64,000 nucleotides of DNA from Natronomonas moolapensis 8.8.11 (lineage in GTDB: Archaea; Halobacteriota; Halobacteria; Halobacteriales; Haloarculaceae), in contig NC_020388.1 of the NCBI RefSeq assembly GCF_000591055.1, positions 682,001 to 746,000 of the forward strand, in the 5' to 3' direction. The notes beneath the pieces are model-generated. The model ran no database searches. It was not told the DNA's origin and saw nothing but the letters and a program-made list of their open reading frames with translations. Both the position numbers and the translations under genes were made by a program. Shown here one piece after another: positions 7,591 through 18,585 of the stretch (the first letter of the stretch is position 1; every line of letters starts with the position of its first letter).

Positions 7591-8498
7591 CCGGCCACCT
7601 CCAGTTTCGCACAGAAGAACCCGCCGGTGTCGTTGTGGTGGGGGTAGATCCGCTTGGCCCGCCGCATCGAGTCGTCGAAGGAGTCGCCCTCCCACGCCGT
7701 GAGTCCGGAAACGTGATCCAGCGGCAACTCGTACTCCAGCAGTCGGCACTCGTGGGTCTCGAGGGCGTGTTGGACGATCGCTTCGTTTTCCTCCGGGGCG
7801 AAGGTACACGTCGAGTAGACGACCGTCCCACCGGGGCGGGTGATCTCGAGGGCGCGATCGAGGATGCCTTTTTGAACCCCCGCAATCCCCTCGACGTGAT
7901 CCATCGACCAGTCCTCAAGCGCGTCGGGGTTCTTTCGGATCGTCCCCTCACACGAACAGGGCACGTCGACGAGCGTCCTGTCGAACGCCTCGCCGCCGAA
8001 GGATTTCAACGAGAAGTTGCGCGCGTCCGCCCGCGTGACGACGAGGTTCGTTACGCCGCAGCGCTCGGCGTTCGACCGCAGCGCCGACAGCCGGCCGAGG
8101 TTGTTGTCGTTGCCGACGAGTAGGCCCCGATCGTCCATCCGCGCGGCGAGTTGGGTCGTCTTGCTCCCCGGCGCGGCACAGCAGTCCAGCACGCGCTCGC
8201 CGGGGTCCGGATCGAGCGCCAGCGCGGGCACTGCCGAGACCTCCTCTTGGCCGTACACCCAGCCGTGGACGAACGGCCAGGAGTTGCCGGGCGATTCGTC
8301 CCCGCCGAGCCGAAAGAGCCCGTCGTGCCACCCGACGGGGCCGAACTCGACGCCGGCCGACTCGAACGCCCGTCGGACGCGGTCCGGCGTCGCTTTGATT
8401 CCGTTGACCCGGACGACTGACGGAAGCGGCCGCCCACAGGCGTCGTGAAACGCCGTCGGATCGTCGACGATGGGGTCGTACCTCGAGAGTGGATCCAT
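7587..8498 (-). CDS. RsmB/NOP family RNA cytosine-C5 methyltransferase (303 aa)
   Basis: The NOL1/NOP2/Sun fold is clear: SAM motif DCCAAPGSKTTQLA near residue 108, GNDNNLGRLSALRSNAERCG, the PC motif DVPCSCEGTIRKNPDALEDW holding one catalytic cysteine, and the TC motif STCTFAPEENE with the nucleophilic cysteine. It ends HHNDTGGFFCAKLE, typical of the family. The reaction is SAM-dependent m5C formation in tRNA or rRNA in the cytoplasm; archaeal Trm4-like members modify tRNA C48/C49. It is the first gene of a two-gene operon with the PUA-like protein. Confidence 0.9.
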   Translation of the reverse strand: MDPLSRYDPIVDDPTAFHDACGRPLPSVVRVNGIKATPDRVRRAFESAGVEFGPVGWHDGLFRLGGDESPGNSWPFVHGWVYGQEEVSAVPALALDPDPGERVLDCCAAPGSKTTQLAARMDDRGLLVGNDNNLGRLSALRSNAERCGVTNLVVTRADARNFSLKSFGGEAFDRTLVDVPCSCEGTIRKNPDALEDWSMDHVEGIAGVQKGILDRALEITRPGGTVVYSTCTFAPEENEAIVQHALETHECRLLEYELPLDHVSGLTAWEGDSFDDSMRRAKRIYPHHNDTGGFFCAKLEVAG

Positions 8499-8524
8499 GC
8501 CCCCAGTCGCCCCCGTGGCGGTTT

Positions 8525-8558
<34 letters not shown>

Positions 8559-9433: not shown

Positions 9434-9931
9434 ATGCGACCGATCCACCCGTCCCAACGCGTTGCGGTTCTCGCGGACTCACAGAATCTCTATCATGCCG
9501 CCCACAGCCTCTACTCCAGAAACGTCGATTACACCGAGTTGCTCGGGGCCGCAGTCGACGACCGGAACCTCGTCCGCGCGATTGCGTACGTGATCCGTGC
9601 GGACTCGCCATCCGAGGAGGAGTTCTTCGACGCGCTCCGGGACATCGGCTTCGAGACGAAAATCAAAGACATCAAGACGTTCGCCGACGGCTCTCAGAAG
9701 GCCAACTGGGACCTCGGGATGTGTCTCGACGCCGTCACTCTCGCCGGGAAGATCGACACGTTCGTCCTCTGCAGTGGCGACGGCGATTTCGCCCGCCTGT
9801 GCACCCACCTGCGACACGAGGGCGTCCGGACGGAGGTGTTCGGCTTCGGCCCCTCGATGGCCGAGGAGCTCGTCGAGGCGGCCGACTCGGTCAACGACCT
9901 GAGCGCCGACGAGGAGCGATACCTCCTTTGA
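9434..9931 (+). CDS. NYN-domain / LabA-like protein (165 aa)
   Basis: The NYN (PIN-like) nuclease fold shows as VAVLADSQNLYHAA (first Asp), KANWDLGMCLDAVTLAGKIDTFVLCSGDGDF (WD and SGDGDF acidic residues) and GVRTEVFGFG. LabA-like proteins are predicted RNases of the cytoplasm. A CATATA box at about 9404-9410 sits 25-28 nt before the ATG, consistent with a leaderless transcript. It is monocistronic, with the amidohydrolase gene convergent just downstream. Confidence 0.88.
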   Translation: MRPIHPSQRVAVLADSQNLYHAAHSLYSRNVDYTELLGAAVDDRNLVRAIAYVIRADSPSEEEFFDALRDIGFETKIKDIKTFADGSQKANWDLGMCLDAVTLAGKIDTFVLCSGDGDFARLCTHLRHEGVRTEVFGFGPSMAEELVEAADSVNDLSADEERYLL

Positions 9932-9937
9932 TCCCGA

Positions 9938-11209
9938 TCAGGGCTCCGTCTCGGCGGTCTCCAGAACCGCTTCCGTCAGCACGTCGACGCCGGGTTTCAG
10001 CGAGTCCTCGTCGACGTCGAACGTCGCGGTGTGGTGGCCGCCGGGGTGGTCCGTCCCGATACAGGCGTACGTCGCCAGCCCGCCGTTCTCCTGGACGCGC
10101 CGCATCAGAAACGTCGCGTCCTCGCTGCCGCCGATCGACCCGCGCCGACTCGCCCGGTCGACGTCGGGGTGTGATTTCGCCGCCGAGCGGACGATGTCGA
10201 CCAACTCGGCGTCGCTCTCTGCGGAGGGGGCTTCGCCCTCGATGGTGACGTCCGTCTCGCAGTCGTGGGAGACGGCCGCGCCCTCGAAGACCTGCTCGGC
10301 CCGCCGGAACGTGTAGTCGCGAATTTCGGTCGTCTCGCCGCGGACCTCGCCGTGGACGAACGCCTCTTGAGGGACGATGTTCGTCGCCGTGCCGCCGCCG
10401 ACGCGGCCGGCGTTGACGCGCGATTCGCCCTCGCTGTGGCGTTCGATACTGTAGAGATTCGAGACGGCGGTCGCCATCGCCTGGACGGCGTTTCGGCCCT
10501 CTTCGGGGCGCGCCCCGGCGTGGCCCGGGTGGCCCTCGAACGTCGTGTAGAACTGCGTAATGGCCAGGAAGTCGTCGATCCCGGCGGCGATTTCGCCAGT
10601 CGGATGGTCGAGACCGACGTGGAGCGCAAAGAGGTACTCCACGTCGTCGAGGTGTCGCGACTCGGCCATCGGTTTGCCCCCGCCGATGACCTCTTCAGCC
10701 GGCTGGAAGAACACTTTGAACGTACCCGAGAAGTCGCTCTCGGCGACCGACTCGAGGACACCGAGACCGATCGTGGCGTGGGCGTCGTGGCCACAGGCGT
10801 GCATCGCGCCCGTCTCGGAGCGGAACCCCTCGCGGGCGGGGGCGTGGTCGTCGTCACTCGACTCTCGCTGCGGGAGACCGTCGATGTCGACCCGGAGGCC
10901 GACGGTCGGGCCCTCGCCCCGCTCTATGACCGCGACGGCGCCGGTCCACCCACCCGAGAGCGACCCGAGGATCTCGGGATCGGCCCCCGCCTCGCGGGCG
11001 CGTTCCATCCACGGTTCGAGTTCTTCGGGATCCGGGACCGCGAGCCGATCGTTCGACAGGGCGTCGCGACCGACGTGTCGTTCGTCGACGCCGATGCGGT
11101 CGAGTTCGGAGACGATGCGGGCGGTGGTCCAAAACTCCCGCCAGGCGGGTTCGGGGTGGCGATGGAACTCCCGACGAAGTTCGACGAGGTGGTCTCGTTC
11201 GACGCTCAT
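9938..11209 (-). CDS. M20-family amidohydrolase (423 aa)
   Basis: Starts MSVERDHLVELRREFHRHPEPAWREF at 11209, the standard N-terminus of the M20D peptidase/amidohydrolase family. Metal-site segments follow: HACGHDAHATIGLG, FFQPAEEVIGGGKPMA, HVGLDHPTGEIA and a late GSEDATFL plus CIGTDHPGGHHTATFDV. These cytoplasmic enzymes hydrolyse N-acyl or amide bonds (hippurate, aminobenzoyl-glutamate, N-acyl amino acids); the substrate is unknown. A TTATAT box at about 11231-11236 supports this start. The frame stays open for a further 136 codons only because the upstream 23-bp repeats lack stops in that phase. Confidence 0.9.
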   Translation of the reverse strand: MSVERDHLVELRREFHRHPEPAWREFWTTARIVSELDRIGVDERHVGRDALSNDRLAVPDPEELEPWMERAREAGADPEILGSLSGGWTGAVAVIERGEGPTVGLRVDIDGLPQRESSDDDHAPAREGFRSETGAMHACGHDAHATIGLGVLESVAESDFSGTFKVFFQPAEEVIGGGKPMAESRHLDDVEYLFALHVGLDHPTGEIAAGIDDFLAITQFYTTFEGHPGHAGARPEEGRNAVQAMATAVSNLYSIERHSEGESRVNAGRVGGGTATNIVPQEAFVHGEVRGETTEIRDYTFRRAEQVFEGAAVSHDCETDVTIEGEAPSAESDAELVDIVRSAAKSHPDVDRASRRGSIGGSEDATFLMRRVQENGGLATYACIGTDHPGGHHTATFDVDEDSLKPGVDVLTEAVLETAETEP

Positions 11210-11270
11210 ACCGATGAGTGGCTCCGGGGCGATATAAGCCCACGTAGTTCCCGAAGCGAGCCATCCTGTT

Positions 11271-11461
11271 CGCGTCCAGTCGTTCGTTTCTGTCGCGTCC
11301 AGTCGTTCGTTTCTGTCGCGTCCAGTCGTTCGTTTCTGTCGCGTCCAGTCGTTCGTTTCTGTCGCGTCCAGTCGTTCGTTTCTGTCGCGTCCAGTCGTTC
11401 GTTTCTGTCGCGTCCAGTCGTTCGTTTCTGTCGCGTCCAGTCGTTCGTTTCTGTCGCGTCC
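11271..11461. repeat. 23-bp perfect tandem repeat, 8 copies plus a 7-bp partial
   Basis: The unit is CGCGTCCAGT followed by CGTTCGTTTCTGT, repeated head to tail without spacers or visible mismatches. Because 23 is not a multiple of three, all three phases appear along one frame, giving spurious repeat peptides. It lies between the amidohydrolase promoter (TATA about 35 bp away) and the 3' end of the S10-like gene. There are no spacers, so it is not a CRISPR array. Confidence 0.95.
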
Positions 11462-11478
11462 GTCGGAGTCCTCGACGC

Positions 11479-11805
11479 CTAGCTGCCGGGCGCGGAGACA
11501 CGCTCGACGTCCACGTCGATGCGGATCCCCTCCGGGAACGCCCGTCCCGCGACGTCGCGCGCGAAGTCGTCGTGGCCGACGATCTCCATCCGGCGCTCGT
11601 AGACCGTGTAGGTCCAATAGGAGAACGACCGATCGCTCGAATCGAGGCGCTTGGACTGGGGGACCGAGACGTCGAACGGCGACTCGGCGTGTGGGCCGCG
11701 CAACTCCACTCCCTTTCGCTCGGCGCAGCCCTTGATGTTCCCGACGACGCGTTCGAGGACAGCTCGGTCCCCACTCTGGAGCGTCAGCGTAGTGACGAAC
11801 GGCAT
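11479..11805 (-). CDS. uS10-like protein (108 aa)
   Basis: Starts MPFVTTLTLQSGDRAVLERVVGNIKGCAERKGVELRGPH at 11805. This is the ribosomal protein S10 fold signature (beta-alpha-beta with a conserved RGP turn), followed by VSVPQSKRLDS, YTVYERRMEIVGHDDFA and a final beta strand (GIRIDVDVERV). Haloarchaea carry such a second S10-like protein beside the true rpsJ product. Its role is unknown; RNA binding is an inference. A longer start at 11892 overlaps the Nudix promoter and is less likely. Confidence 0.75.
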   Translation of the reverse strand: MPFVTTLTLQSGDRAVLERVVGNIKGCAERKGVELRGPHAESPFDVSVPQSKRLDSSDRSFSYWTYTVYERRMEIVGHDDFARDVAGRAFPEGIRIDVDVERVSAPGS

Positions 11806-11920
11806 ATCACCTCGTGAACGCTCGACCGGCAAAAACGCATCTATCGGCGCCGGATCGCTCGCCGTCGTGGCGGCAACCTCTCCGACACCCATTTATCACA
11901 TGGCCGTTTACGGTGGGCTA

Positions 11921-12346
11921 ATGATAGAGGCCACGAGCGCGGGAGCCATCCTCTTTCGCGATACGCGTGGCCGGCGCGAGTACTTGCTGCTCAAGTCCCG
12001 GCCCGGCGACTGGGAGTTCCCCAAGGGCGGCGTTGAGGGCGAGGAGGAGCTTCAGCAGACCGCCATCCGTGAAGTGAAAGAGGAGGCCGGAATCGAGGAC
12101 TTCCGGCTGTTGGACGGCTTCCGCGACGACTACGACTACGTGTTCGAGGCGAACGGCAACACCATTCACAAGACGGTCCACCTGTTCATCGCGCGCTCGT
12201 TCGAAGCGTCCGCCGAGCTCTCCTCGGAGCACCGGGACCTCCAGTGGCGCGACTACGAGCAAGCGATCAACACGATCACTCAGGACGGCCCCCGGGAGAT
12301 CCTAGAGGAGGCCCACGAGTTCATCGACGAGGAACTCGAAGAGTAA
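11921..12346 (+). CDS. Nudix hydrolase, bis(5'-nucleosyl)-tetraphosphatase type (141 aa)
   Basis: The Nudix box is intact: GGVEGEEELQQTAIREVKEEAGIE (G-x5-E-x7-REVxEExGI). It opens EATSAGAILFRD and contains LLLKSRPGDWEFPKGG, as in Ap4A hydrolases, which remove signalling or toxic dinucleotides. The ATG at 11921 was chosen over one at 11900 because a TTTATCA box at about 11892-11898 lies 25-28 nt upstream, fitting a leaderless mRNA, and because family members begin at this point. It is divergent from the S10-like gene. Confidence 0.9.
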   Translation: MIEATSAGAILFRDTRGRREYLLLKSRPGDWEFPKGGVEGEEELQQTAIREVKEEAGIEDFRLLDGFRDDYDYVFEANGNTIHKTVHLFIARSFEASAELSSEHRDLQWRDYEQAINTITQDGPREILEEAHEFIDEELEE

Positions 12347-12397
12347 CAGCGCGGGCACACGGACTGGACCTGGAGACGGTTGCGGCGTGTCGACAGC

Positions 12398-12757
12398 TCA
12401 GGTCCGGAAGGACTCCCCACAGCCGCACTCGCTTTCGACGTTGGGGTTCTCGACGTCGAAGCCCTTGCCCTGGAGGCCGCCCTCGAAGTCGAGAACAGAG
12501 CCGTCGATGTACTTCTGACTCGCCGGGTCGACGAACACCCGGAGGCCGTGGTGTTCGGTTATCGCATCGTCGTCTTCGGGTTCGACATCGAAGCGAAGTC
12601 CGTACGAGAGCCCCGCACAGCCGCCCTGCTGGACGAACAGCCGGAGGCCGGCCTTGTCGGTATCATAGCCCTCCTGCTCGATGAGGGACAGCGCCTGGTC
12701 GGCGGCTGTTTCGGTCACTTCGACCGGGTCTCTCGAGGGTTCAACGCTTTGACTCAT
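12398..12757 (-). CDS. IscA/HesB-type iron-sulfur carrier protein (119 aa)
   Basis: The A-type carrier fold is clear: VTETAADQALSLIEQEG, LRLFVQQGGCAGLSYGLRFD with the first conserved cysteine, and the C-terminal CGCGESF supplying the other two. The middle carries the family's VDPASQKYIDGSVLDFEGGLQGKGFDVENPN. These cytoplasmic proteins receive Fe-S clusters and pass them to apo-enzymes. It is a single gene with no suf or isc partner adjacent. Length is normal and all key cysteines are present. Confidence 0.93.
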   Translation of the reverse strand: MSQSVEPSRDPVEVTETAADQALSLIEQEGYDTDKAGLRLFVQQGGCAGLSYGLRFDVEPEDDDAITEHHGLRVFVDPASQKYIDGSVLDFEGGLQGKGFDVENPNVESECGCGESFRT

Positions 12758-16445: not shown

Positions 16446-17133
16446 GTGTTCAGATAAGGATGAAGAGTGAGGCGGTGCGTTTTTTGAGTGTCTATGTTCA
16501 AAAACACCCGCCTCAACGGCTGTTTGGACGAGATTGAGTTAGGTTTTGTGGAACGAGAAGCGACACCGAAATTGCTGATGAAGCTCGGTATTCAACTCCA
16601 TTTGACTGGACTATCACTTTCGAATACCGTTTCAATTCTTGAAATATTCGGTGTCGAACGAGCTCGATCTACCGTTCACAACTGGGTTCACAAAGCTGAT
16701 CTACAGCCCGAATCTAATTGGAGCCCGGATCACGTTGCGGTCGATGAAACCGTGATCCAACTCAATGATGAGCAGTATTGGCTGTACGCCGCTGTCGATC
16801 CCGAAACAAACGAATTACTGCATACAACGCTTGAGCCAACGACAAACAAGGTAATTGCTCACGAATTCTTTGCCGAACTTCGTGAGAAACATGACGTTGA
16901 CGGCGCGGTGTTTCTCATCGATGGCTCGCACTCCTTGAAACATGCCTGTCGCCGTCACAGCCTCGATTTCAGATATGAAAAACATGGAAATCGGAATAGT
17001 GTCGAACGTGTCTTTCGAGAGATAAAACGACGAACTACCAGTTTCTCAAACTGTTTCAGCAACGCCGAAGCAGATACCGCCGACGACTGGCTTCGATCCT
17101 TCGCCTTCGCATGGAATCAGCTTATCTGAACAC
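16446..17133 (+). mobile_element. complete IS6-family insertion sequence
   Basis: The ends GTGTTCAGATAAG (16446-16458) and CTTATCTGAACAC (17121-17133) are perfect 13-bp inverted repeats enclosing one transposase gene. No target duplication is visible next to the ends, which is common where IS6 copies have recombined. A truncated second copy lies at 20811-21087. Confidence 0.85.
16488..17129 (+). CDS. IS6-family transposase (213 aa)
   Basis: A complete DDE transposase: the N-terminal helix-turn-helix region (LMKLGIQLHLTGLSLSNTVSIL, ARSTVHNWVHKADLQP), then catalytic residues in VAVDETVIQL (D), FLIDGSHSL (D) and NSVERVFREIKRRT (E). Length and order match haloarchaeal IS6 (ISH14/15-like) transposases, which move by replicative transposition forming cointegrates. 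The last codons overlap the right inverted repeat. Confidence 0.93.
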   Translation: MSMFKNTRLNGCLDEIELGFVEREATPKLLMKLGIQLHLTGLSLSNTVSILEIFGVERARSTVHNWVHKADLQPESNWSPDHVAVDETVIQLNDEQYWLYAAVDPETNELLHTTLEPTTNKVIAHEFFAELREKHDVDGAVFLIDGSHSLKHACRRHSLDFRYEKHGNRNSVERVFREIKRRTTSFSNCFSNAEADTADDWLRSFAFAWNQLI

Positions 17134-17198
17134 TACCCTTCGAGAGGAATCGTGTACTGGTAGACCGGCATCTGTCCCATGTACGGCTTCCAACTACA

Positions 17199-17516
17199 TC
17201 AGCCAAGCTTCTCCACAACGGCAGTACTCATACTTGGGACAGACGACGCCTGAGTACTCGACCTCGAATCCTCGCCGAATTCCCTCTCCAGTACCTCAGT
17301 CACATCAACTTTGAACGTTCCTCCAGGTGCTTCTCGAACCTCAATTGTATCCTCGCCCGATAGAGCAATTGTCTCCGCTTTGGAGTGTTCTTCAGCAAGG
17401 AAATTGGCTACACGGAGCTCGTCCTCACTCGGTGACTCTATTTCGACCTCGACGCTGTCGGAAGTCTCTGACCCAGAACGGTCCCGCTCTGGTTCCTCAA
17501 TGGAATTGTCTTCACC
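17199..17516 (-). pseudogene. C-terminal fragment of an unknown acidic protein, cut by an insertion sequence
   Basis: Reading away from the IS end at 17517, the minus strand gives an open frame with very acidic, protein-like sequence: GEDNSIEEPERDRSGSETSD, SPSEDELRVANFLAEEHSKA, GEDTIEVREAPGGTFKVDVT, LEREFGEDS, ending TAVVEKLG and TGA at 17199-17201. Its upstream part does not continue beyond the IS at 18586, so the rest was lost. No family recognised. Confidence 0.45.
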
Positions 17517-18585
17517 GAGGGTGTCATAGAACTCTTCTCACACCGTGATGATCGTGCTTCCCGGATTGTCTCCGCGTTCGTAGTTAGTGATAGCGACGAC
17601 GAGGCGAAGGCACAGCGAGAGGAACACCTGCGCTCGCGCGTGGACGCGGCCTCGGGCGTGCGTTCGCCCGAGGCCGCAGTCGTTCACTGATTCGTTGGTC
17701 CGTTCGACTCCTGTGCGGCGGTTGTACGTCTCATCCAACGTGGATTGCTTCAGTTGGACGTCTTCGCTGTGTTCGTCGATGCGGCCTTCGACTCTGTACT
17801 GGATATCTTTTGGGTCATCGGCGTTTCGGGCGTTGTACGGAGCGACTGGCACGACCCCTGCGGCCAGCAGGTGGTCGTGCCAGTCGAGCGTGTCGTAGGC
17901 GCTGTCACCGACCATCCAGATCGGCTTGGCGACGGCGAGCGCGTCACGCGTGACGCGCATCGCAGTCTCTTCTGGCGCTTGCTTACTCTCGGTGAACTCG
18001 GCTGCAATCGGGATCTTTTGCCCGGTCGAGGCGATCGTGCAACCGTAGCCGTAGTAGTACTCGTCGTCGGTTGGATCGTAGCACTTCGAGGCGTCTTGAT
18101 CGGCGGGCATCGCCCTCACGTCGGTTGAATCGATACAGTAGGTCAAGTCGAGCAGGCCGCGCCGGGCGGCCTGCTCGACGAGCCAGTCGAAGACTTCGTC
18201 AACAACGTGTTCGAGGTCGGTGAGAAAGCGATCGACCGCGTCTCTCGACGGCGGTCGATCGAAGCCACAGCTGAGCCAGACAATGGTGTTGTTCAGTTCT
18301 CGTGCAACCGGACGGATGCCGTAGATGTCCTTGTAATAGCAGTGGAGGAAGCCACGCATCATCTCGGGCGGTTCAAGATCTCGTGTTCGCCCCGTCTCCG
18401 CCGGGGCGAACACGTCGAACCCTTCGAGAAACTCGAACGAGAGATGCTCGAACAACGCCAACGTCTCCGTTTCCACGACATTGAAGAACGATTCTACCGA
18501 AGGATCATCTTGCAGGATCGCTGGACTCATTCCACCTCAGCGTTCACCCTGCTCTTTGGTATGCGAACTGTTCTATGACACCCTC
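17517..18585 (-). mobile_element. IS4/IS5-superfamily insertion sequence, 1069 bp
   Basis: The 16-bp perfect inverted repeats GAGGGTGTCATAGAAC (17517-17532) and GTTCTATGACACCCTC (18570-18585) enclose one transposase gene. No target duplication is visible (flanks TTCACC and TACGTC differ), suggesting later rearrangement. It cuts the fragment at 17199-17516. Confidence 0.85.
17538..18530 (-). CDS. DDE transposase of the IS4/IS5 superfamily (330 aa)
   Basis: The DDE_Tnp_1 pattern is visible: YCIDSTDVRAMP (first Asp), YYYGYGCTIASTGQKIPIAAE, PIWMVGDSAYDTLDWHDHL (second Asp), APYNARNADDPKDIQYRVEGRI and YNRRTGVERTNESVNDCGLG (Glu in the Y-x2-R-x3-E-x6-K-like box). The C-terminus has a hydrophobic helix (QVFLSLCLRLVVAI). 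Intact length; likely functional. The exact IS group was not resolved. Confidence 0.88.
   Translation of the reverse strand: MSPAILQDDPSVESFFNVVETETLALFEHLSFEFLEGFDVFAPAETGRTRDLEPPEMMRGFLHCYYKDIYGIRPVARELNNTIVWLSCGFDRPPSRDAVDRFLTDLEHVVDEVFDWLVEQAARRGLLDLTYCIDSTDVRAMPADQDASKCYDPTDDEYYYGYGCTIASTGQKIPIAAEFTESKQAPEETAMRVTRDALAVAKPIWMVGDSAYDTLDWHDHLLAAGVVPVAPYNARNADDPKDIQYRVEGRIDEHSEDVQLKQSTLDETYNRRTGVERTNESVNDCGLGRTHARGRVHARAQVFLSLCLRLVVAITNYERGDNPGSTIITV

Follow-up and report, generated by a model that had tools for sequence, protein, structure and literature searches.

In the 64,000-nucleotide stretch of the Natronomonas moolapensis 8.8.11 genome that we analyzed (hereafter the window), a spacer between two minus-strand genes carries a perfect tandem array of eight 23-bp units, which we interpret, with a probability of roughly 85%, as a recent, lineage-specific minisatellite. 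The longest run with strict 23-bp periodicity, every base recurring 23 positions further on, spans 11270-11461, i.e., 192 bp or 8.0 whole units in one phase, and reads on the plus strand as TCGCGTCC followed by eight times AGTCGTTCGTTTCTGTCGCGTCC. TRF returns the same repeat at 11270-11465 (period 23, 8.6 copies, 99% matches), and the exact unit is present in 8 copies in the window vs 0.00 in 100 dinucleotide-preserving shuffles. These results confirm the eight identical head-to-tail units noticed in an earlier, sequence-only reading of this DNA, which had placed them at 11271-11461; the right end of that span stands, and the left end has to be moved by one base, to 11270. Written out differently, the array consists of nine 8-mers TCGCGTCC, one of them at each array end, bounding eight copies of one 15-mer. 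The left flank reads CTGT-TCGCGTCC and is thus one base longer than the CTG-TCGCGTCC found inside the units.

The gene upstream of the array (11479-11805, minus strand) encodes a 108-aa uS10-like protein, and its stop codon (11479-11481) is separated from the array by 17 bp. This protein matches Pfam PF00338 Ribosomal_S10 with 44.4 bits and scores 29.7 bits against NCBIfam TIGR01046, under the cut-off of 96.25, suggesting a paralogue and not the canonical uS10. On the other side of the array lies a 423-aa M20-family amidohydrolase gene (9938-11209, minus strand), a label already given to it from the letters alone and confirmed here via Peptidase_M20 and TIGR01891. The TATA element of the M20 gene is located at 11233-11237 on the minus strand, with the sense-strand sequence CTTATATC, and the first T of TTATAT in this sequence stands 28 nt from the M20 ATG. 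A TATA element about 28 nt before the ATG is what would be expected for leaderless mRNAs of haloarchaea. The array indeed begins beyond the TATA element, further upstream, at a distance of 32 bp instead of the 35 bp or so previously estimated. A scan for bacterial promoters and terminators found none, a result that says little for an archaeon.

Both flanking genes are present in all 20 genomes of the genus, that of N. moolapensis included. We read the spacer in those 17 relatives (of 19, each species being represented by one genome) whose two genes lie close together on one contig; the comparison leaves out G121, with about 4.4 kb between the genes, and G130, which has them on different contigs. 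None of the 17 spacers contains the 23-bp array. TRF at a low threshold reported tandem rows for five of these spacers (G119, G131, G122, G124, and G133), none with a period of 23 and none nearly perfect over at least four copies. The spacer is as short as about 58-75 bp in four of the relatives (G123, G134, G116, and G128), and 460-990 bp in several others, in which, judged by eye, it seems to hold a further gene. In G132, the closest relative by protein identity (86% for M20, 90% for the uS10-like protein), the spacer (L065) is likewise long, with 261 bp of unrelated, non-repeated sequence. The spot between the two genes may be one that tolerates insertions. A TATA-like element is found 28-30 nt before the M20 start codon in 17/17 relatives (28 nt in 13 of them), and the start codon and TATA spacing of the N. 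moolapensis gene agree with theirs, indicating that the core promoter is conserved and that the array was added behind it. Because the relatives compared do not have the array, it most likely arose through a recent ordinary copying accident and is unlikely to be a conserved genetic switch. The recent expansion put forward in the sequence-only reading is hence supported both by the perfect identity of the units and by the lack of such an array in the corresponding spacer of the 17 relatives.

The position of the array, so close behind the TATA element, raises the possibility of a copy-number tuner, in which slippage would make unit number differ from cell to cell and thereby change M20 expression via spacing or local DNA shape. 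Perfect identity of units, typical of unstable arrays, also fits such a model. However, the units are placed upstream of the core promoter and leave the TATA-to-start spacing unaltered, and the array is missing from every one of the relatives' spacers compared. In addition, the DNA helix makes one turn about every 10.5 bp, and a 23-bp period does not correspond to complete turns, so the units do not fall on one face of the helix. We consider this model unlikely, and slightly less likely still its extended version, namely a young cis-regulatory tuner whose in-species changes in unit number would raise or lower M20 expression from the conserved leaderless promoter, which would make it an archaeal promoter VNTR. 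A new function within N. moolapensis itself is nevertheless compatible with absence of the array in other species.

Repeated sites near a promoter could also constitute an operator array, whose units would bind a regulator cooperatively and control the M20 or the uS10-like gene, and an imperfect palindrome, CTG-T-CGCG-TC-CAG, can be seen by eye at each unit junction. We searched for further copies of the unit in the genome of N. moolapensis (2.91 Mb, a single contig of 2,912,573 bp) and found none at up to 3 mismatches, all 8 genome matches being inside the array. A two-unit pattern matched only one of 146 genomes of the family, that of N. moolapensis. A 21-mer of the unit, allowing up to 3 mismatches, gave 5 matches in 4 of the 19 relatives, all of them away from this locus, and the reversed control pattern gave 2 matches, 1 in a relative and 1 in the N. 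moolapensis genome. The sites are thus neither kept with the gene in relatives, 17/17 of which have a spacer devoid of the array and retain the TATA-like element, nor found at other genes of the genome, and an operator present as eight perfect copies without any other copy would be unusual. These results leave the operator proposed in the sequence-only reading unsupported, and we regard it as very improbable. We also dismissed a mobile or plasmid-borne repeat, as the spacer has no match among plasmids and the exact unit has none in viral_contigs; it has none in genome_contigs either, and the N. moolapensis genome may be left out of these two collections.

Given that the array follows the uS10-like stop codon on the same strand, at a distance of 17 bp, it might instead be transcribed, either within the 3′ untranslated region of the mRNA of this gene, with a role in stability or termination, or as a coding extension of either gene. 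The single-stranded array folds more strongly than dinucleotide shuffles, a point in favor of a structured transcript and against a plain minisatellite, with z values of −4.34 for RNA on the minus strand and, for DNA, −6.90 on the plus and −5.43 on the minus strand. Such shuffles destroy the period, and any hairpin that a unit can form enters the value of the array eightfold. In a fairer control, based on RNA parameters, in which the unit was shuffled and then repeated eight times, the RNA folding excess disappeared: 166 of 300 controls were as strong as the array on the plus strand and 90 of 300 on the minus strand. Furthermore, no Rfam family matched region 9900-12500 at E values up to 1, and we discarded a structured RNA family on these two grounds. 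As for a coding extension, the array is stop-free in all six frames; long open frames running through it are therefore automatic and provide no evidence of coding, and the M20 start codon and its TATA spacing are those of the relatives. A coding extension of a flanking gene was rejected on the basis of these uninformative frames, and altogether a transcribed element seems to us extremely improbable.

To what extent such arrays are common in this genome was assessed with TRF on 464 kb of N. moolapensis sequence, comprising the window and 20 further stretches, with a G+C content of 63.4%; the published genome consists of one chromosome of 2.9 Mb with 64.5% G+C (PMC3623002). Of the 55 rows obtained, two pass our thresholds (period of at least 10, at least 4 copies, and at least 95% matches), corresponding to the 23-bp array and to a second perfect intergenic array, whereas none did so in the 200 kb sampled from each of G119 and G121; these rates rest on small samples. 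Arrays of such quality are not common background, and finding one in a promoter region is a point against a neutral reading. The second array lies outside the window (G000:C1:908333-908688; L091:8333-8688) and comprises 4.7 copies of a 75-bp unit. It follows a gene that we read by eye as uL11 and precedes one read as lumazine synthase, and a 34-bp probe of it matched the N. moolapensis genome only among the 20 genomes of the genus. Since the final 27 bp of the uL11 gene form part of its unit, this array appears to have arisen by duplication of local sequence. The 75-bp unit is unrelated to the 23-bp unit. A 14-bp stretch of the 23-bp unit is also found in the uL11 gene beside the second array, a match that we attribute to chance, random 23-mers of the sample having on average 0.975 such 14-mer matches. 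The presence of two unrelated units in one genome points to a process that duplicates local DNA and not to a shared regulator.

Among the three possibilities raised in the sequence-only reading (operator, expression tuner, and neutral repeat), a neutral minisatellite best fits these data, and the array, confined to this locus, is probably neutral. In the scenario that we favor, a short direct repeat, with TCGCGTCC as its likely core, would have flanked the 15-bp stretch AGTCGTTCGTTTCTG, and one tandem duplication would have followed by slipped replication or by recombination driven by microhomology. An ancestral single-copy seed was seen neither by eye in the relatives' spacers nor at the locus using the 21-mer at up to 3 mismatches. 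The number of units would then have risen to eight through unequal recombination or further slippage. Haloarchaea carry several chromosome copies, and gene conversion between these copies may have kept the units identical. The resulting array occupies the DNA that separates the uS10-like stop codon from the conserved M20 core promoter, and it disrupts neither. If it affects transcription at all, this would be a by-product of shifting the promoter-upstream DNA about 200 bp away. Unit number is expected to vary between strains. There is precedent for this scenario in Haloquadratum walsbyi, for which a published account describes strain-specific polyrepeats of differing copy number as well as repeat-mediated deletions over repeats of 4-20 bp (PMC3119063).

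The array adds one more example to a known kind of element, the minisatellite: its copies run head to tail, its 23-bp unit lies within the range of roughly 10-100 bp, and it is confined to one place. Its short head-to-tail units, restricted to one locus of a haloarchaeal genome and not dispersed elsewhere in it, liken it to the repeats treated in the survey "Satellites in the prokaryote world" (PMC6749651), a portion of which indicates that most species have few satellites. As described there, those of Halobacteria mainly have a period divisible by three and lie inside coding regions, in contrast to the intergenic array with period 23 described here (PMC6749651). The polyrepeat indels of H. 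walsbyi are similarly short haloarchaeal tandem repeats, some of which differ in copy number between strains, but the example presented there is a 6-mer that varies somewhat, and several of these repeats are coding, whereas the present array is 23 bp in period, perfect, and intergenic (PMC3119063). CRISPR arrays also consist of repeated short units. Here, the periodicity is perfect throughout and the shared 8-mers are always separated by the same sequence, with no unique spacers between the repeats, which identifies a plain tandem repeat and not a CRISPR array. A 37-bp repeat with differing spacers that does resemble a CRISPR array was seen in the TRF control sample of G121 (L129:18925-19540). 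As a minisatellite, the array of N. moolapensis might serve as a strain marker and illustrates how a spacer in a haloarchaeon can undergo tandem expansion, and it matters little beyond that; only an effect on expression, if true, would give it wider importance. Having at least two such perfect arrays, this genome could be used to ask how archaea expand and homogenize tandem repeats. Elsewhere in the window, TRF detected a perfect hexamer repeat, TGTCGG, in 5.8 copies at 8524-8558, just upstream of a divergent gene pair near 8498 and 8600, and two open frames at 16488-18530 (213 aa on the plus strand and 330 aa on the minus strand) resemble, by eye, insertion-sequence transposases.
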